DNA of 64,000 nt from assembly GCA_025352045.1 (NCBI GenBank), contig JANXUD010000058.1, positions 1 through 64,000 of the forward strand, written 5' to 3'. Below the pieces are notes generated by a model. The model saw only the letters and a list, made by a program, of their open reading frames with translations. It did not search any database and was not told where the DNA came from. Below, piece after piece: positions 535-46,871 of the stretch. Made by a program: the position numbers and the translations under genes. Source of the stretch: Gammaproteobacteria bacterium (GTDB taxonomy: Bacteria; Pseudomonadota; Gammaproteobacteria; Xanthomonadales; Xanthomonadaceae). Within the stretch, counting starts at the first letter, position 1, and every line of letters begins with the position of its first letter.

Positions 535-2298
535 TCACACCGTTGCCCGGTCCGGCTTGAGCAGGACAGCGAGGGTCGCCGTGCGCGGCAGGATCCGCGC
601 GAAATAGTCGGCGGCATCGCGCAGGTGCGGGTTGTCCGCCTTCGCGCCTGCCGCGGTCGCGGTGGCCGCGGCCCGGGCGTGCCAGTAAGCCAGGGCCACG
701 TAGCCGGAGTAGAACAGGAAGTCCACGGCGCACTCGCCCACCACGTCCGGATTGCCGGCCGCACGGCGGGCGATGTCCATGGTCAGCTCGCCCCAGCGCT
801 TGGTCGCTTCGGCCAAGGGCAGCACGTAGCCGTGCATGTCCACGTTCACCGCCTGTTCCTCGCAGAACTTCTGCACCAGGCCCAGGAACTGGCGCATGCC
901 CACCCCCTGCAACTGCAGGATCTTGCGGCCGAGCAGGTCCATCGCCTGGACCTGTGTGGTGCCCTCGTAGATGGTGGTGATGCGGGCATCGCGTGCCAGC
1001 TGCTCCATGCCGGTTTCGCGGATGTAGCCGGCGCCGCCGAATACCTGCAGCGCGTCGTAGGTCACTTCCACCGACCACTCGGTCAGGCAGGCCTTGACGA
1101 TCGGCGTCAGGAAGCCCAACAGGGACTCGGCATTGGCGCGCTCGGCGTCGTCCTTGCTGCGCTCGATGATGTCCACCTGCAAGGCCGCGTGCAGGACCAG
1201 CATGCGGCTGCCGGCAGTCAACGTGCGGCAGGTGGACAGCAACTGGCGCACCGGACCGTGCACGATGATCGGATCGGCAGGCTTGTCGGGAAATTTTGCA
1301 CCCGACAGCGAACGCCCCTGCAGGCGCTCGTTCGCGTAGCGTTCGGCATTCTGCGTCGCGCGGTCCATCAGGCCGAGGCCCTGCAGGCCGACGGCGAGCC
1401 GCGCGGTATTCATCATGGTGAACATCGCATTGAGGCCCTTGTTCGGTTGGCCGATCAGCCAGCCCTGGGCGCCCTCGAAATTCATCACGCAGGTGGACGA
1501 GCCGTGGATGCCCATCTTGTGTTCGATCGAGGCGCAGCGCAGGCCATTGCGCTCGCCCATCACGCCGTCCTTGCCGACCTTGAACTTGGGCACGATGAAC
1601 AGGGAGATGCCCTTGGTGCCGGCCGGGGCATCCGGAAGCCGCGCGAGCACGAGGTGCACGATGTTGGGCGTGAGGTCGTGCTCGCCGCCGGTGATGAAGA
1701 TCTTGGTCCCGGAGATGGCGTACGAGCCATCGCCCGACGCGGATGGTTCGGCGCGCGTGCGCAACAGGCCGAGGTCCGTGCCGGCCTGCGGTTCGGTCAG
1801 GCACATGGTGCCCATCCACTTGCCTTCGATGATCGGCGCCAGAAAGGCCGTCTTCTGCCAGTCCTCGCCATGGTGCTTGAGCGCCTCGATGGCGCCGTGC
1901 GAGAGCAGGGTGTAGTTCGCCCAGCCCAGGTTGGCGGCGTCGAGCATTTCCTTGACCGCCGCGCCCAGGCTTTCGGGCATGTCCTGCCCGCCGAGCGCTT
2001 CAGGCGCGGTCAGGCCGCTCCAGCCGCCGTCCACGAAGGTGTCATGGGCCGCGCGGAAGCCGGGCGGGGTGGTGACCTCGCCGGTGGATTTGTCCAGCGA
2101 GCAACCGATCTGGTCGCCGACGTCGCTGATCGGCACCAGCACGGTTTCGGTGAAGCGCGCTGCCTCGTCGAGCACCGCGTCCATCACGTCGCGGGTGGCG
2201 TTGGCGAAGCCGAGGCGCGCGTACACCGGTTCGGCCCCGATCACGTCGAACAGGGCAAAGCGGATCGCGTCCAGCGGTGGCTTGTAGCTCGTGGCCAT
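535..2298 (-). CDS. Acyl-CoA dehydrogenase family protein
   Basis: 587 aa; WMGTMCLTEPQAGTDLGLLRTRAEP and QVFGGAGYIRETGMEQLARDARITTIYEGTTQVQAMDLLGRK are acyl-CoA dehydrogenase signatures. Confidence 0.93.
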   Translation of the reverse strand: MATSYKPPLDAIRFALFDVIGAEPVYARLGFANATRDVMDAVLDEAARFTETVLVPISDVGDQIGCSLDKSTGEVTTPPGFRAAHDTFVDGGWSGLTAPEALGGQDMPESLGAAVKEMLDAANLGWANYTLLSHGAIEALKHHGEDWQKTAFLAPIIEGKWMGTMCLTEPQAGTDLGLLRTRAEPSASGDGSYAISGTKIFITGGEHDLTPNIVHLVLARLPDAPAGTKGISLFIVPKFKVGKDGVMGERNGLRCASIEHKMGIHGSSTCVMNFEGAQGWLIGQPNKGLNAMFTMMNTARLAVGLQGLGLMDRATQNAERYANERLQGRSLSGAKFPDKPADPIIVHGPVRQLLSTCRTLTAGSRMLVLHAALQVDIIERSKDDAERANAESLLGFLTPIVKACLTEWSVEVTYDALQVFGGAGYIRETGMEQLARDARITTIYEGTTQVQAMDLLGRKILQLQGVGMRQFLGLVQKFCEEQAVNVDMHGYVLPLAEATKRWGELTMDIARRAAGNPDVVGECAVDFLFYSGYVALAYWHARAAATATAAGAKADNPHLRDAADYFARILPRTATLAVLLKPDRATV

Positions 2299-2308
2299 CC
2301 GCGCGACC

Positions 2309-2770
2309 CTATCGCATCACGCCGGGCAGGCCCGGCGCGGGGTTGAGCGAGCTCTCGAACTCGAAGGGATAGCTGCCCTTGGGCTGGGTCGTCACGATGG
2401 TTCCCTTGAGCGAATAGCGCTGCGACTGGCCCGCGGCAAGCGCCGAGGCGACTGCCAGCTTGCCGCCGAGGGCGGGCTTGAGCGTCGCCGCGACAATGTC
2501 GGCCGACTCCGGGCCGATCGTGATGCCCGGTGCGACGTCGATCGCGCCGGCGTCCTGGCCGCCGATGGTCAGTTCGGCGTGCACGGTGGCGAAGGCCGTG
2601 GGCACGTTGCTGAAGTTCTGCAGCCGCACGTCCAGCTGCCATGAACCGTCGCCCCGCGCCTGCAGTTGCTGGATGCTCGCCCGGGGCGGATTGACTACCT
2701 TGCGTGGTGCATGCGAACAGGCTGAAAGGGCGCCAAGAACCGCGATGGTGAACACAGTTTTCAAGCGCAT
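2309..2770 (-). CDS. LEA type 2 / WHy-domain-like lipoprotein
   Basis: Internal start MRLKTVFTIAVLGALSACSH gives a lipobox (LSAC); LQNFSNVPTAFATVHAELTIGGQDAG resembles the WHy/LEA14 fold. Confidence 0.7.
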   Translation of the reverse strand: MRLKTVFTIAVLGALSACSHAPRKVVNPPRASIQQLQARGDGSWQLDVRLQNFSNVPTAFATVHAELTIGGQDAGAIDVAPGITIGPESADIVAATLKPALGGKLAVASALAAGQSQRYSLKGTIVTTQPKGSYPFEFESSLNPAPGLPGVMR

Positions 2771-13435: not shown

Positions 13436-14571
13436 CGCGCCGTGGCCGCGGCCGCGTCGGGACTGATCGTCGCCTCGACGCCTTCCAGCTTCACGCCATC
13501 GAACTGCAGCACCGGCGTGTGCAAGGTTCCCGCCATCGGTGGCAAGGGCGAGGCGGGCGTGGCCGCCACCCAGTCGCGCAATGCCGCCACCTGGAGCGAG
13601 GCATCCAGCGTGGTCTGGCCCTTGGCGACCTGCAGGCGCATCGCGTCGGACACGTCCTTGCGGCCAAGGTAGGCCAGGTGCACGGGAAGGTCCTTGGTCT
13701 GCGAGGCGAGCGGCTCGGGCAGGTTGGGCCAGACGGCGGGCCATTCGCGCAGCAGCCCGTCGAAGCCGAAGTCCAGGCGCGCATCCGAGCGCAAAGTCGC
13801 CTTGCCGGCGATGTGCGGCAGCGGCGAATCGCCCTGTACGTCGAGGCGATCGGCGTCGAGCGTGAGCAGGTTGTCGATGGAGGCATAGCGGCCGGCCAGG
13901 CCGAGCTTGAAGGCGAGCGGTTTTGGCGCCTGCTGCAGGCTCCCCGTGCTCTCGAGCGTGTACGCGGACGCGAGGCCCGCAGTGGCGAGCGCCAGGTGCA
14001 GCTTCGCGTCCAGGTGGGTGGTGCCCTGCTCGTAGCGCCCCGACGCGGAGATGTCGGCTGGCTCGCCCTGCTTGAGCCGGGGGAGGCCGAGCAAGAGGCC
14101 GCGCACTGCAAAGCCGGCGCCCAGGATCGTGCCGCCGCGCAGGTCCAGGCCGTGGGTCAGGGTGGGCAGCTTGAAGGGTTGCTTCGGGCGCGAGGCGAGC
14201 CAGCGTTGCAATCCGTCGATGCGCAGCACCGGCGAGTCGAGCTGCAGGCGCGTGATCACCGGTTCGCCGCCAGTGATGGTGGCCCAGGGCAGGGAGATTT
14301 CCGCGTGTTTGGCGGTGAGGAAGGGCGCACCGTCGAGCTCCGCCACGGTGAGGCCGGGAAGCAGGAGTCGCGGTTCCGGACGCAGCGCGTATTCGGGCGT
14401 GCCGCTGAAGCCGAAGCGCAGTTGCAGCGCCGTGCCGGCGCGCTCGAGCACGGTGGCGGCCAGGCGGTTGGGTTCGAGTTGACGGTTGATCCACCAGGCT
14501 GCAACAAAACCCAGCAACGCCAGCACACCCAGCACCACCAGCCAGCGGCGGGCGCGCCGGGACAGGGCCAT
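13432..14571 (-). CDS. AsmA family protein
   Basis: 379 aa; N-terminal TM then LEPNRLAATVLERAGTALQLRFGFSGTPEYALRPEPRLLLPGLTVAELDG; ATGA overlap with mutY. Confidence 0.72.
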   Translation of the reverse strand: MALSRRARRWLVVLGVLALLGFVAAWWINRQLEPNRLAATVLERAGTALQLRFGFSGTPEYALRPEPRLLLPGLTVAELDGAPFLTAKHAEISLPWATITGGEPVITRLQLDSPVLRIDGLQRWLASRPKQPFKLPTLTHGLDLRGGTILGAGFAVRGLLLGLPRLKQGEPADISASGRYEQGTTHLDAKLHLALATAGLASAYTLESTGSLQQAPKPLAFKLGLAGRYASIDNLLTLDADRLDVQGDSPLPHIAGKATLRSDARLDFGFDGLLREWPAVWPNLPEPLASQTKDLPVHLAYLGRKDVSDAMRLQVAKGQTTLDASLQVAALRDWVAATPASPLPPMAGTLHTPVLQFDGVKLEGVEATISPDAAAATAR

Positions 14572-31058: not shown

Positions 31059-31847
31059 ATGGCAGGCGGCTTGCGTGTGGTGCTGGTGGGTACGCAGCAC
31101 CCCGGCAACATCGGTTCGGCGGCGCGGGCGATGAAGACCATGGGCCTTCACCAACTGGTGCTGGTTGCGCCGGAGCGCTTCCCCGACCCCGATGCGTGGG
31201 CGCTGGCCGCGGGCGCGGTGGATGTGCTGGACGCCGCGCGCATCGTGCCGACGCTGGCCGACGCGGTCGCCGACTGCCAGCTGGTGCTGGCGACCACGGC
31301 ACGCCGGCGCAGCGTGCCCATGCCCGAATTCGACCCGCGGACGGCCGCGGGGCAGCTGCGCGGCGAGGTGGAAGCAGGCGCCGCGGCGGCGCTGGTGTTC
31401 GGCCGCGAACGCACGGGCCTGGAGAACGAGGAGTTGCAGCTGTGCCATGGCGCGATCCGGATTCCCGCCAACCCCGACTACAGCTCGCTCAACCTGGCGG
31501 CGGCGGTGCAGATCCTGGCCTACGAGTGGCGACTGTCCGGCCTGGCTGCCGCGTCCGGAGGCGGGCCCGGCAGCGAACCGGCGACGGCGCTGCCGGCCGA
31601 CGATCCCGGCGCCGCGCCCGACCCCGACGACCGCCCCGCCAGCCACGCCGAGTTGGAGGGTTTCTTCGGCCACCTGGCCGCGTTGCTGGAGCAGATCGAC
31701 TTCCACAAGGGCAAGGCGCCCGACATGGTGACCCAGCGCCTGCGCCGCCTGTTCCTGCGCGCCCGGCCAGACCCGCGGGAGCTGCGCATCCTGCGCGGCA
31801 TCCTCTCCGATACCCAACGCCAACTGCGCAGCCCAACCGGGCAATGA
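31059..31847 (+). CDS. trmJ: tRNA (cytidine/uridine-2'-O-)-methyltransferase TrmJ-like
   Basis: [69 protein letters not shown]. Confidence 0.92.
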
Positions 31848-39886: not shown

Positions 39887-40231
39887 ATGCCCGGAAAGTC
39901 TGCCGCCGACCGCATCATGGACGCCATCCGCGCGGTGCCGCCGGGGCAGGTCGCCGGGTATGGCGAGATCGCGCGCCGCGCCGGCTTGCCTGGCCGCGCC
40001 CGCCTGGTCGCCAGGCTGGTGGCGGGCAACGATGACCCGGCGCTGCCCTGGCATCGCGTGATGCGCTCGGACGGGCGCATTGCATTCCCGCCGGACCACC
40101 CGCATTACGCAGAGCAGTCGCAGCGGCTGCTTGCGGAAGGCGTGGACGTGAAGGCTGGCCGCGTGCGCGGGCAGCGCGCGGCGGCGACACTCGATGAACT
40201 GCTCTGGGCACCCAAAGGACGACGCGCTTGA
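39887..40231 (+). CDS. MGMT-family alkyltransferase-like (ATL) protein
   Basis: IRAVPPGQVAGYGEIARRAGLPGRARLVARLVAGNDDPALPWHRVMRSDGRIAFP; PWHR in place of catalytic PCHR. Confidence 0.92.
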   Translation: MPGKSAADRIMDAIRAVPPGQVAGYGEIARRAGLPGRARLVARLVAGNDDPALPWHRVMRSDGRIAFPPDHPHYAEQSQRLLAEGVDVKAGRVRGQRAAATLDELLWAPKGRRA

Positions 40232-40890
40232 ACCCGATTCCGCCGGTCACCAAATACCTGTTGTGGGCGCTCGTGATCGCCTTCGGCCTGCAATCCATGC
40301 AGGAGGAGGCGGCACTGCGCTACTTCGCGCTGTGGCCACTGGGCGACTTCCCCGATGGCGCAGGCGGATCACTCGGCTTCCAGCCCTGGCAGTTGCTGAC
40401 CTACGCCCTGTTGCATGGCAATTTCATGCACCTGTTCCTCAACGGCATCGGACTGTTCCAGTTCGGACCGCGCATCGAGTACGCGCTCGGGCAGAAGCGC
40501 TTCCTGATCTTCGTGCTGGTCTGCACGATCGGCGCGGGCCTGTGCCAGCTCGTCGTTACGACGCTGATGACCCGGTCCGGCGCCCAAGCCTATCCGACCC
40601 TGGGGGCATCGGGCTTCATCTACGGCATCCTGCTGGCCTATGGCGCGCTGTTCCCGAAGGACCGCATCATGCTGATGCTGCCGCCGGTGGAGATGTCGGC
40701 GCGCACCATGGTGATCGCCTTCGGCGCGCTCGAGTTGTTCACCGGAATCACGGGGACCATGGGCGGCGTGGCCCACTTCGCGCATCTGGGCGGCATGCTG
40801 TTTGGCTGGGTGTTGCTGCGCTACTGGCGCGGGCAGCCGCCGTTCACCAAGCGCAAGCCGCCGCCGCCGAGGCTGCGCAGCGTCAACTGA
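40228..40890 (+). CDS. Rhomboid family intramembrane serine protease
   Basis: TTG start overlapping upstream stop; TLGASGFIYGILLAYGALFP; GNFMHLFLNGIGLFQFGPRIE; AHFAHLGGMLFGWVL. Confidence 0.93.
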   Translation: MNPIPPVTKYLLWALVIAFGLQSMQEEAALRYFALWPLGDFPDGAGGSLGFQPWQLLTYALLHGNFMHLFLNGIGLFQFGPRIEYALGQKRFLIFVLVCTIGAGLCQLVVTTLMTRSGAQAYPTLGASGFIYGILLAYGALFPKDRIMLMLPPVEMSARTMVIAFGALELFTGITGTMGGVAHFAHLGGMLFGWVLLRYWRGQPPFTKRKPPPPRLRSVN

Positions 40891-40932: not shown

Positions 40933-43792
40933 TCAGCGACGCAGCGACAGGAAGTCGGCGCTCGTGACCAGGCGCAGCGAATCCAGCCGCGGCCGGGCCA
41001 GGGGCAGCAGCGTGCGCAGCGCCTCGCGCTCGTCGCGCAGCAGCGCGATTTCCTCGGGGCGGACCGAAGGATTCACCTGCGCCAGCGCTTCGATGCGCAG
41101 CACCTCGGCGCCGAGCAGCGCCTCCGCGGCGGCCAGGGCCTCGGCCGCCAGGCGCGCGCACTGCTCCATGCCCTCGGCATGCGCGCGCTCCAGCATCGGC
41201 GGCACCAGCGCCGCCAGCACCTTGCGCATCGGGGAGATGTCGTACTGGCGGTCGCCCGCGCGCACTGCGGCGCGTTCGTTGGGCGCAAAGCCCGGCCGCA
41301 CCTGCAACCGCGTGTCCACGGCCACCGTCACCGGCAGCGGCGGCAGGAAGCGCTCGACGTTCAGGGCTGCCGGCGCGATGCATTCGAGCACGTAGACCGC
41401 CTCCAGGATCGCGCTGCGCGGTGGCAGGCTGTCGTCCACGAGGTAGGCGGCATTGCCGGTCTCGCCCGAGGCCAGCATTTCCTGCGCCGACAACAGCATC
41501 GGATGGTCGGCGCGCAGGTAGAGCAGGTCGTCGCGGGCCAGCGCGGTGGCACGATCGAAGGTGGCGGTGCGCGGGCCGCCCTTGAGTTCCTCGAAGCCTT
41601 CCACCGTCAGGTATTCCGGATCGAGCAGCCACAGTTGCGGGCCCAGCGGCTCGCCATGGATGCCGAAGGCCTCGAGCAGGCGCAGCGGATAGTCCTCGTG
41701 CGCCTGGTCGGCGTCATCGGCGGCCAGCCCGGCCTGCAGCGCTTCGCCGCCGCCGCGGCGACTGCCCAGTTCCAGCAGGCGGTCGCGGCCGCGGGCGATG
41801 GTGTCGGCGAGTTCGTCCACCGCGGCGGCGCTGCGCGCGATCATGTCCGACAGTTGCGGCTCGCGTTCTTCGCCATCCATGGCGGCGAGCTGCAGCAATT
41901 CCGCCCCGAAGCGGCGCAGCAGCTCGCGGCCGTCCGGCACCACCTGGTCGAAGGCGCGCAGGCCCTCGTGCATCCAGCGCAGCAGCACTTCCTGCGGACT
42001 GCCGGCCACCGCCGACAGGTGCAGGTGCACGTCGCCGCGCTGGCCGATGCGGTCGAGCCGGCCGATCCGTTGCTCCAGCATGTCCGGGTGGAACGGCAGG
42101 TCCCAGAACACCAGGTGCTGGGCGAACTGGAAGTTGCGGCCCTCGGCGCCGATCTCCGAGGCGATCAGCAGGCGTGCGCCCTCCGGATCGGCGAAGTAGG
42201 CCGCATTGCGATCGCGCTGCAGCAGGTTCATGTCCTCGTGGAAACGCGCCACGGCGATGCCGCTGCGCAGGCGCAGGGCCTCTTCCAGCGCCTGCACCTT
42301 GGCGCGGCTGCGGCACAGCACGAGTGCCTTTGCTGGCGCGATGGACTCAAGTGTCGCCAGCAGCCAGTCGATGCGCGGGTCGTGCTTGTAGTCGTGCTCG
42401 GGCTCGTCGCGCAGGTCGCCCAGGTCGTGATCGAATTCGGCGCGCAGCAGGCCGTGCAGGCGCGGTTCCTCGCCGCCGGCCAGGGTCTGCAGGTGCGCGA
42501 CGCGGCGCGGGAAGCCACCGACCGCGGCGCGGCGGTTGCGGACCATGACGCGGCCGGTGCCATGGCGATCCACCAGGTCGGCGAGCAGTGCATCGCGTGC
42601 TTGGCCATCGCCGCCGGCGATCGCTGCAAGGCGCGCGGCCAGCTGGTCACCTTCCTCCGGGAATAGCGGCGCGAGTGTCTCCATGTCGCCCTGGGTCAGC
42701 GCTTCGCTCGCCAGCAGGCGCTCGGCCAGCGCCGACAGTTGCAGGTAGCGCGATTGCTCTGCGATGAAGGCCGGCAGGTCGCTGTAGCGGGAGGGATCGA
42801 GCAGGCGCAGGCGGGCGAAGTGGCCGCCCAGGCCGAGTTGCTCCGGCGTCGCCGTCAGAAGCAGCAGGGCCGGCGTCGTCGCCGCGAGCGATTCGACCAG
42901 CGTATAGCCCTCGCTCTGCGACTCGGGGCTCCAGACCAGGTGGTGCGCTTCGTCCACCAGCAGCAAGTCCCAGCCGGCGTCCAGCGCCTGCGCCGCGCGC
43001 TTTTCGTGGCTGGCCAGCCAGTCCACCGAGGCGACCACCAGTTGCTCGTCCTCGAAGGGATTGCGCGCGACCGCGGCGCCGTCGTCGTCGTTGAGCTCGA
43101 GCGACTCGCAGCGTTCCTCGTCGTAGATCGCGAACACCAGGTTGAACCGGCGCAGCAGTTCCACGAACCACTGGTTGACCAGGCTCTCCGGCACCAGGAT
43201 CAACACCCGGCGCGCGCGCCCGCTGGCGATCAGCTGCGCGGTCACCAGGCAGGCCTCGATGGTCTTGCCCAGGCCTACTTCGTCGGCCAGCAGCAGGCGC
43301 GGCACGCGGCGCTCGGCGGCGATCGCCGCCACCCGCAACTGGTGCGGGATCAGGTCGATGCGCGCACCCATGGCGCCCCAGCCCGGATGGGCGCGCGCGC
43401 GCGCGGCGTTCGAGCATTTCGCGCCGCAGTTCGAATCGATCGTTGCGATCCAGCCGGCCCGCGAGCAGGCGCGCATCGGCCTGCGAGACCGGTTGTTCGG
43501 CATCGAGTTCGCCCTCGGCGAAGACCTGGCCGCCGCCGCAGGTGTAGCGGATCAGGCCCTCGTCCACGTCCGATTGCTCGACCAGGCGCGGGACGCCATC
43601 CACCTGCACCCGGTCGCCGGGCCGGAACGCGGCGCGCAGCAGCGGCGCGCTGCCGATCGCGTAATTCCGAAGCATGCCGGACCCGGTGAAGACGATCTGC
43701 ACCTGGCGTCCGGCCAGCCGCAGTACCGTCCCCAACCCCAGCTCGGGTTCGGCGCTGCTGAACCAGCGTTGCCCTGGTCGAAATTCGAGCAT
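40933..43792 (-). pseudogene. rapA: RNA polymerase-associated RapA (SNF2-type), split by a frameshift near 43391-43405
   Basis: N-terminus MLEFRPGQRWFSSAEPELGLGTVLRL...DRNDRFELRREMLERRARAR in one frame (from 43792); continuation ARARAHPGWGAMGARIDLIPHQLRVAAIAAERRVPRLLLADEVGLGKTIEACL in another frame to 40933. Confidence 0.88.
43391..43405. repeat. (GC)7 dinucleotide tract at the rapA frameshift
   Basis: gcgcgcgcgcgcgcg, uninterrupted alternating GC. Confidence 0.95.
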
Positions 43793-43941: not shown

Positions 43942-46077
43942 TTACCAGATGGCGACCTTCTTGTCGCCGGCGCGGACCATGGCATCGCCGGCCTTGCAGC
44001 TGAAGGCCTGGGCGAATGCGTCCATGTTCGACGGCGCACCGTTGGCGCGGAACGCTTCCGGCGCATGCGGGTTGGTGTTGAGCATCACCGCCATCGCTTC
44101 CGGGCGACGCTGGCCGCGCCAGATGGTGGCGAAGTTCAGGAAGAAGCGCTGGTCCTGGGTGAAGCCGTCGATCTCGCCGATGCGCTTGTTGGCCAGGTCC
44201 TTGTGCAGTGCGTCGAGGGCGATGTTGATGCCGCCCAGGTCGCCGATGTTCTCGCCCAGGGTCAGCTGGCCCTTCACGTGCTTGCCATTGACCGTGTAGT
44301 CGTCGAACTGCTTGACCAGCACCGCGGTGCGCGCGTTGAACTGCTTGCGGTCGACGTCGGTCCACCAGTTGGCGTTGTTGCCGAGCTTGTCGAACTGGCT
44401 GCCCTGGTCGTCGAAGCCGTGCATGATCTCGTGGCCGATTACGGCGCCGATGCCGCCGTAGTTGAGCGCCGGGTCCGCCTTCGGGTCGAAGAAGGGCGGC
44501 TGCAGGATCGCCGCCGGGAACACGACCTCGTTCTTGAGCGGGTTGTAATAGGCGTTGACCGTCTGCGGGCTCATGCCCCATTCCTGGCGATCGACCGGCT
44601 TGCCGATCTTGGCCATGCGGAAGGCATTCTCGAAGGCATTGGCGGTCATGACGTTGGCGTAGTAGCTGGCCTTGCCGTCCACGGACAGGCCGGCGAAGTC
44701 GCGCCACTTGTCCGGGTAACCGATCTTCGGGTCGAAGGTCTCGAGCTTCTCGAGCGCCTTGGCCTTGGTCTCCGGGCTCATCCAAGCCAGGTTCTGCAGG
44801 CGATCCTTGAGTGCGAGGCGCAGGTTGCCGACCAGTTGCTGCATGGCGGCCTTGGACTCCTCCGGGAACACCTGCTTGACGTAGATCTGGCCCAGGGCCT
44901 CGCCCATGGTGCCGTTGATCGTGCCGAGCACGCGCTTCCAGCGCGGACGCTGCTGCGGCTGGCCGCTGAGGGTCTTTCCGTAGAAGCCGAAGCTCTCGTC
45001 GCTGGCGGCATCGGACAGGTAGGGCGCGGCGTCATTGAGCACGTGGTAGCGCAGGTAACTCTGCCAGGCAGTGACCGGAACCTCGGTCAGCATCTTGTCG
45101 AACTCGGCGAAGAACTTGGGCTGGCTCAGCGAGAAGCCGTCCACGCCGCCGACCTTCTCGGCTGCCAGGAACTTGGTCCAGTCGAAATGCGGCGTGGCCT
45201 TGTTGGCCTCCTCGATGCTCACCCAGTGGTACTGGTTGGCCGGATCGCGGCCCTCGATCGGGGTCAGCGAGGCCGTCGCGAGGCGCGTTTCGAAGGCCAG
45301 CACGTCGGCCGCCTGGGTCTTGGCCGCGGCGGCATCCACGCCGCCGAGCACCAGCATGCGCTCGACATGGGCGAGGAAGGCGTCGCGGATCTCCTTGTAC
45401 TGCGGCTCGAGGTAATAGGCGCGCTCGGGCAGGGACAGGCCGCCTTCGTTGGCGTAGCCGGTGGACTTGCTGGCGTCCTTGAAGTCTTCGGCGGAACCGA
45501 AGCCGAACACCTGGTTGTCACCGTGCGCGAAGCTGTCGTTGAGGTAGTTGACGATGCCGGCGGTGTCGGCGATGGCCGCCACCTTGTCCAGCGTCGCCTT
45601 GACCGGCGCGATGCCGTCGGCGTTCACCTTCGCTTCGTCCATGCCGACGCGATAGAAATCGCCCAGCTTCTGTTCGTTGCTGCCGGCGGCGAAACCGCCC
45701 TTGCCGGCGGCTTCGACGATCTGCTTCTGCACTTCCAGCGAGCGGTCGCCCAGCATGTTGAAGTTGCCCCAGCTGGTCTTGTCGGCCGGGATCGGGTTGG
45801 CGGCCAGCCACTTGCCGTTGACGTGCGCGTTGAGGTCGTTGCAGATCGGCGTGTTGGCGTCGAGGTCGGTGGGGTCGAAGTGCGGCAGGGCCGTCAGCTT
45901 GGATGCATCGATGGTGATCGCGGGCGCGGCGGCGGGTGCAGGCGTCGCCACGGCGGCCGTGGCGGCGTCATCGTGCTTCTTGCAGGCGGCCAGCGCGCCG
46001 GCGATGGCGAGCGCCAGGCCGATTTGTTTCAGGCTGATTAGATTCAGGCCAGATTGCTTGAGGTGGGTCAGGTTCAC
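43942..46077 (-). CDS. M13 family metallopeptidase (neprilysin-like)
   Basis: 711 aa from GTG at 46077; signal/lipobox region LAIAGALAACKKH; VIGHEIMHGFDDQGSQFD zinc motif; LTLGENIGDLGGINIALDAL. Confidence 0.95.
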   Translation of the reverse strand: MNLTHLKQSGLNLISLKQIGLALAIAGALAACKKHDDAATAAVATPAPAAAPAITIDASKLTALPHFDPTDLDANTPICNDLNAHVNGKWLAANPIPADKTSWGNFNMLGDRSLEVQKQIVEAAGKGGFAAGSNEQKLGDFYRVGMDEAKVNADGIAPVKATLDKVAAIADTAGIVNYLNDSFAHGDNQVFGFGSAEDFKDASKSTGYANEGGLSLPERAYYLEPQYKEIRDAFLAHVERMLVLGGVDAAAAKTQAADVLAFETRLATASLTPIEGRDPANQYHWVSIEEANKATPHFDWTKFLAAEKVGGVDGFSLSQPKFFAEFDKMLTEVPVTAWQSYLRYHVLNDAAPYLSDAASDESFGFYGKTLSGQPQQRPRWKRVLGTINGTMGEALGQIYVKQVFPEESKAAMQQLVGNLRLALKDRLQNLAWMSPETKAKALEKLETFDPKIGYPDKWRDFAGLSVDGKASYYANVMTANAFENAFRMAKIGKPVDRQEWGMSPQTVNAYYNPLKNEVVFPAAILQPPFFDPKADPALNYGGIGAVIGHEIMHGFDDQGSQFDKLGNNANWWTDVDRKQFNARTAVLVKQFDDYTVNGKHVKGQLTLGENIGDLGGINIALDALHKDLANKRIGEIDGFTQDQRFFLNFATIWRGQRRPEAMAVMLNTNPHAPEAFRANGAPSNMDAFAQAFSCKAGDAMVRAGDKKVAIW

Positions 46078-46262
46078 GTGCGGCTCCGGGCCCCGCGGGG
46101 CAGATGGTCGTTCAGGGGAACTGCCCGATGAGGAAACACAGGCAGGCGCGCGAGCGTACGGCATCGGGGCGACCCGCGGGGATAGGCCGATGGTCATGGA
46201 TGGGCGCCGTGGGCCCGGGCTGGAGCTAGACTCTTGGCCGGACGACCCGCACGAGCCCCGCC

Positions 46263-46871
46263 ATGCCTAGCCTGACCCTGTCTCGACTGCCCGGAATGCT
46301 CCCGATCATCGCCCTGCTGCTGGCGGCCGCCTGCTCGCGCAGCCCCGACGCGGCAGCGGCGGTGGACCAGGCAGCGGCGCCCGGCGCCGCGACGCAAGCG
46401 ACCACCGCCGCGACGCAAGCGCCCGCCGCTTCGCCGCAGGCCGCGACCGCCCCGGAATCCCATCTCCTGGACGATCCGACCGCCCCAACTGCCCCGGCGA
46501 TGGATCCCCTCCCGGCGCCGGCCGCCGCGAGCGCGCCCACCGTCGGCTCGATCCTGGCGCCGGGCCGGCCGCGCAAACCCCTGGTCCGCCCCGCGTCGGC
46601 GCCTAATCGCCCGGCGTTCATTCCCATAGGCAGCGACATTCCCGACGGGCCGGTCGCTGCCCCCGATGCCCCGCGCCAGGCCTGCGCCCAGCCCCGGCCG
46701 ACTGCCTGCAACCTGGATTACAAACCGGTCTGCGCCGATGTCGATACCGGTGTCCGCTGCATCGCCGCGCCCTGTCCTTCGAGCGAACGCAAGACCTTCG
46801 GCAGTTCCTGCAAGGCCTGCCGCGATACAAAGGTCACGGCCTTCGTGAGCGGCACCTGTCCGAAGCAGTGA
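46263..46871 (+). CDS. Lipoprotein with Kazal-like cysteine-rich C-terminal domain (paralog 1)
   Basis: LAAACSRSPD lipobox; C-term CNLDYKPVCADVDTGVRCIAAPCPSSERKTFGSSCKACRDTKVTAFVSGTCPKQ. Confidence 0.72.
   Translation: MPSLTLSRLPGMLPIIALLLAAACSRSPDAAAAVDQAAAPGAATQATTAATQAPAASPQAATAPESHLLDDPTAPTAPAMDPLPAPAAASAPTVGSILAPGRPRKPLVRPASAPNRPAFIPIGSDIPDGPVAAPDAPRQACAQPRPTACNLDYKPVCADVDTGVRCIAAPCPSSERKTFGSSCKACRDTKVTAFVSGTCPKQ

Follow-up and report, generated by a model that had tools for sequence, protein, structure and literature searches.

The rapA gene in the DNA analysed here, a stretch of 64,000 nucleotides (the window), is divided between two reading frames that meet inside a short alternating run of G and C. 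The break is probably an indel error in the draft consensus rather than a regulated feature. A scan of the genus also uncovered six small genomes with a RapA that lacks the ATPase motor, and we consider this motor-less RapA to matter more than the break in rapA. The window corresponds to contig 28 of an assembly of 141 contigs and 3.0 Mb (98.9% complete), and the nearest named relatives of the assembly are Arenimonas, followed by other Xanthomonadales genera.

The rapA gene and its GC tract

The open reading frames and their translations place the RapA N-terminal domain (NTD) in one minus-strand frame and the ATPase and C-terminal part in another. The 5' part of rapA (42647..43792, minus strand) starts at the ATG at 43792 and matches positions 2-140 of the RapA model NF003426. 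The NTD takes up its first ∼133 codons, after which an out-of-frame continuation runs to a stop at 42647, giving 381 amino acids in total. The 3' part (40933..43503, minus strand) is open from an ATG at 43503, within the NTD coding region, to 40933; its 856 amino acids correspond to NF003426 positions 141-955. Taken together, the two parts cover 2-955 of the 959 model positions, and nothing is missing except the frame. Profile searches found the Tudor-like domains of the NTD (Tudor_1_RapA and Tudor_RapA; PF18339, E = 1.8e-17, and PF18337, E = 1.9e-6), as well as the SNF2 ATPase core, Helicase_C and RapA_C in the downstream part (PF00176, E = 3.9e-16; PF00271, E = 9.1e-17; PF12137, E = 2.4e-81; NF003426, 816 bits against a cut-off of 576). 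Upstream of rapA lies a putative M13-type peptidase gene (43942..46197, minus strand), a neighbour common to other species of the genus, and downstream a putative gene for a rhomboid-like membrane protein (40228..40890, plus strand), which is likewise a neighbour common to other species; both were named by sequence similarity.

The one continuous reading frame of a RapA is interrupted at 43391-43405 on the minus strand, a (GC)7 tract that forms a 15-nt alternating G/C run, and the two frames meet inside it. The first-pass annotation had already placed the NTD and the ATPase part in different minus-strand frames and the switch in this tract; the NF003426 matches and the reading frames bear out both claims. 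It had also proposed that contraction by a single GC unit explains the break. This is supported by the two nearest relatives: in the alignment our gene has a net shortfall of two bases exactly at the tract, and the joined reading RRARARAHPGWG agrees with the residues of both relatives.

When the window was shuffled 100 times, a 14-nt GC run arose in 15 of the shuffles. Yet only 0.013% of the 903 kb of sequence examined consists of GC runs of 14 nt or more, so the break and the tract belong together; a causal link between them, through slippage in the cell or during sequencing, is very probable. The genome contains eight GC tracts of at least 14 nt, all of them coding and one longer than that of rapA (17 nt), and only the tract in rapA is at a broken gene. 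The other seven are in apparently intact frames, which argues against a general fault of the data at tracts of this kind. A second candidate for a GC-tract break, on contig 43, was dropped; its tract just precedes an apparent 4-nt stop/start gene overlap.

Conservation of and selection on rapA

NTD and ATPase are encoded in one frame in 79 of 80 named rapA loci, and the frame transition is thus not conserved among orthologues. The sole exception, from Arenimonas sp. UBA12134 (L051), has an NN contig join at the corresponding place. This join and a short repeated stretch interrupt the gene near position 945 of that locus, an assembly artefact. A scan of the genus with NF003426 found an uninterrupted RapA ATPase in 17 of the 21 genomes that have one. 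The four interrupted cases are our own genome, broken at the tract; G011, whose rapA in two pieces is the NN-joined UBA12134 locus (L015/L051); G026, in which the gene is split between two contigs; and G017. The last of these, a same-genus draft, has one in-frame TAA inside rapA (C30, 3475-6306). Outside the family, the single-contig genome G619 has a RapA NTD match (C1, 1091375-1091788) with an open frame of only 161 amino acids; a RapA frame of 937 amino acids is present in G479, of the same genus as G619, and G619 may represent an independent rapA break.

The GC tract is private to this genome. The longest alternation at the site in the relatives shown is 11 nt, they encode the corresponding residues in frame without the repeat, and the tract is not kept at the site in related genomes, as it would be in a phase-variable gene. 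A one-frame rapA in nearly all relatives, combined with a private tract, indicates that this is not a conserved switch and, at the level of sequence comparison, is evidence against rapA harbouring a conserved site of recoding or a contingency locus.

Apart from the break, each part of rapA is intact and under normal constraint. A relative-rate test of the C-terminal part, with the nearest relative L065 and L037 as outgroup, gave 54 unique residues in our sequence versus 51 in L065, and omega was 0.22 between our sequence and L065 versus 0.24 between L065 and L037. Neither measure showed relaxed selection on the downstream part, and no second lesion was found in the 2.9 kb of the gene. Given this lack of decay, the break must be very recent or not in the organism at all.

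Other frame breaks and the origin of the break in rapA

At least four further frame breaks of 1-2 bases were found in conserved genes of the same assembly, unrelated to rapA, within ∼204 kb of homologue-covered coding sequence. A break was called where a single gene in a relative aligned with the two halves of a gene of ours in different frames, and three relatives were compared. The affected genes encode a DEAD/DeaD helicase, broken in the second helicase domain (L162 near 628), a class IV aminotransferase (Aminotran_4; L169 near 11911), a HlyD/CusB-type efflux adaptor (L129 near 5740) and an alginate-export-like porin (Alginate_exp; L185 near 11540), each with a net loss of 1-2 bases. The first three of these breaks are not on a long repeat. 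The reverse comparison, covering ∼305 kb of the three relatives by the same method, revealed no convincing frame break. Assuming that events are evenly spread, the probability that all five breaks (rapA included) would fall in our genome by chance is ∼0.01. These figures, small as the counts are, point to an excess of small deletions in the sequence of this assembly. In a separate comparison, a possible but doubtful frame break was seen in a glnD-like gene of the relative G025 (L226 near 526).

The survey combined a home-made Markov/Viterbi gene model with homology and was checked by hand; it yielded small event counts. An intrinsic frameshift scan with the model at its first settings found nothing; once the settings were relaxed, it picked up numerous gene overlaps and antisense artefacts, at a higher density per kb in the control than in our own sequence. 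The model was therefore used only together with homology. In the GC-rich DNA, long antisense ORFs gave rise to spurious events in the unfiltered homology scan, and these events were removed by hand. Suspected breaks were rejected at window position 31077 (antisense) and in L168, L182 and L158 (gene boundaries), and a gene-model suspect at 46755 of the window turned out to lie inside an intact 202-aa ORF. The break in L129 had been set aside as an antisense artefact, a verdict overturned by a check of the sense frame, and is counted as a break. The gene model also suggests that the frame changes at window position 13586, close to where an AsmA-like ORF ends and upstream of a mutY-like one.

Where a gene seems to be frameshifted at a tempting repeat, the break has to be weighed against the rate of frame breaks in its own assembly. 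Because this assembly has further unrelated breaks, we favour an error: one GC unit of the alternating tract would have dropped out of the draft consensus, and RapA in the organism itself would be ordinary and intact, recycling RNA polymerase. We infer that the loss occurred in the data and not in the cell. In a large survey, too, frameshifted singleton genes that have homologues are expected to be the product of sequencing errors (PMC3711429). Against this stands that the site is a plausible hotspot for slippage in vivo, where a real and recent mutation would look the same. A private event of this kind, in which the sequenced strain lost one GC unit and was left with a loss-of-function or NTD-less rapA allele too young to have decayed, is possible, if rather unlikely. 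It would fit with a break exactly on the tract, the longest alternation seen at the site, and with a genome that has a single RapA_C gene; a null allele could also survive, given that deletion of rapA in E. coli does not significantly affect the growth rate except at high salt (PMC8501970). However, it leaves aside that other conserved genes of the assembly are also broken, some at non-repeat positions, and that the two parts of rapA are constrained as in a working gene. A real deletion would leave the cell with a 381-aa product, the NTD followed by a nonsense tail, and possibly with an NTD-less RapA translated from an internal start. The latter product need not be dead, since E. coli RapA without residues 1-107 still binds RNA polymerase and is activated by it (PMC8501970).

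The first-pass annotation had offered four options, of which sequencing or assembly error is the one favoured by the other breaks, and phase variation, programmed frameshifting and an old fixed pseudogene are all disfavoured. Dinucleotide repeats are a known device of phase variation, and one unit gained or lost in the tract would change the frame and might switch full-length RapA on and off in a population. We nevertheless regard slippage-based phase variation as highly improbable: the tract is absent from every other orthologue shown, seven unit repeats are short, RapA is a housekeeping RNA polymerase factor and not a surface or modification gene, and of the eight tracts of this length only one coincides with a break. 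We know of no phase-variable RapA, and a literature search found no report of a phase-variable rapA, in agreement with the first-pass annotation, which knew of none; a real and reversible break would be the first known to us. Slighter still is the likelihood that the tract slips in the population in such a way that cells alternate between full RapA and an NTD uncoupled from its motor. By analogy, the forms in related species that consist of the NTD and a partial C-terminal domain suggest that motor-free RapA may be useful, for example as an ATP-independent guard of RNA polymerase. Programmed ribosomal frameshifting or transcriptional slippage at the tract would yield full RapA plus an NTD-only product. 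Alternating GCG/CGC codons would in principle permit two-base re-pairing, and the original frame stays open for ∼248 codons past the tract without an early stop, but the frame transition is not conserved, the junction lacks a stop codon that could provoke a shift, and relatives encode the same residues in frame without the repeat, all of which makes recoding extremely improbable. We give equally little credence to an old fixed pseudogene, which would account for the broken frame but not for the missing second lesion or for the undiminished selection on the gene.

Motor-less RapA and likeness to known systems

Six genomes of 1.5-2.2 Mb in the same genus (G001, G006, G007, G014, G015 and G024) had a RapA-NTD match in the genus scan and no RapA ATPase anywhere. 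Their loci, L267 to L272, encode a motor-less RapA of 318-326 amino acids (L267, 572-1552, minus strand; L269 and L270, each 1486-2454, plus strand; L272, 1483-2463, plus strand; and L268 and L271). In these proteins the NTD (full-length residues ∼1-133) is joined directly to residues ∼702-881 and the last residues; they lack any equivalent of 631 residues, among them the entire Swi2/Snf2 core. The gene occupies the same locus as full-length rapA in the four cases examined, either between the peptidase and rhomboid-like genes or beside the latter. The NTD is clear (PF18339, E down to 6e-17; PDB RapA NTD, E = 3e-21). For the C-terminal part the Pfam signal is weak, with a best score of 26.1 bits versus a cut-off of 26.8 and no match in one of four, and by BLAST this part is 29-32% identical to full RapA (E from 1e-17 to 1e-24). 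The six proteins group together in a single, fully supported clade that sits on a long branch. Omega is 0.13-0.19 among close pairs (L269-L271) and low in both halves, which indicates that motor-less RapA is kept by purifying selection. A search of the family (397 genomes) and the class (369 genomes) gave few other short RapA frames, several of which may be contig ends. We found no description of a motor-less RapA in an incomplete search of the literature.

The non-specific binding of RNA polymerase to DNA is lowered by E. coli RapA even when ATP is absent; the NTD of RapA contacts the zinc-binding domain and is associated with closure of the clamp (PMC8666675). We hypothesize, by analogy, that motor-less RapA may keep an ATP-independent function in guarding RNA polymerase. 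A lineage without the motor would make it possible to test whether the ATP-independent effect (PMC8666675) is worth keeping alone.

With regard to known systems, the rapA of the window is of the E. coli type, a RapA (HepA) Swi2/Snf2 ATPase (NF003426; PDB 6BOG, 4S20) with the same Tudor-like NTD, SNF2 core and RapA_C, but it is split over two frames between the NTD and the ATPase core (model positions 140/141). It resembles phase-variable genes that are switched by slippage of simple sequence repeats (SSRs) in having a dinucleotide tract whose number of units sets the frame; in contrast to these, the tract is not conserved and the class of gene is atypical, and the likeness is known from one sequence. 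Singleton frameshifted genes and the gene-fragmenting indel errors of draft genomes (PMC3711429) share with our case an isolated break, intact orthologues and several unrelated genes hit within one assembly; the difference is that the break in rapA falls on a GC dinucleotide run, whereas most of the other breaks found here do not.
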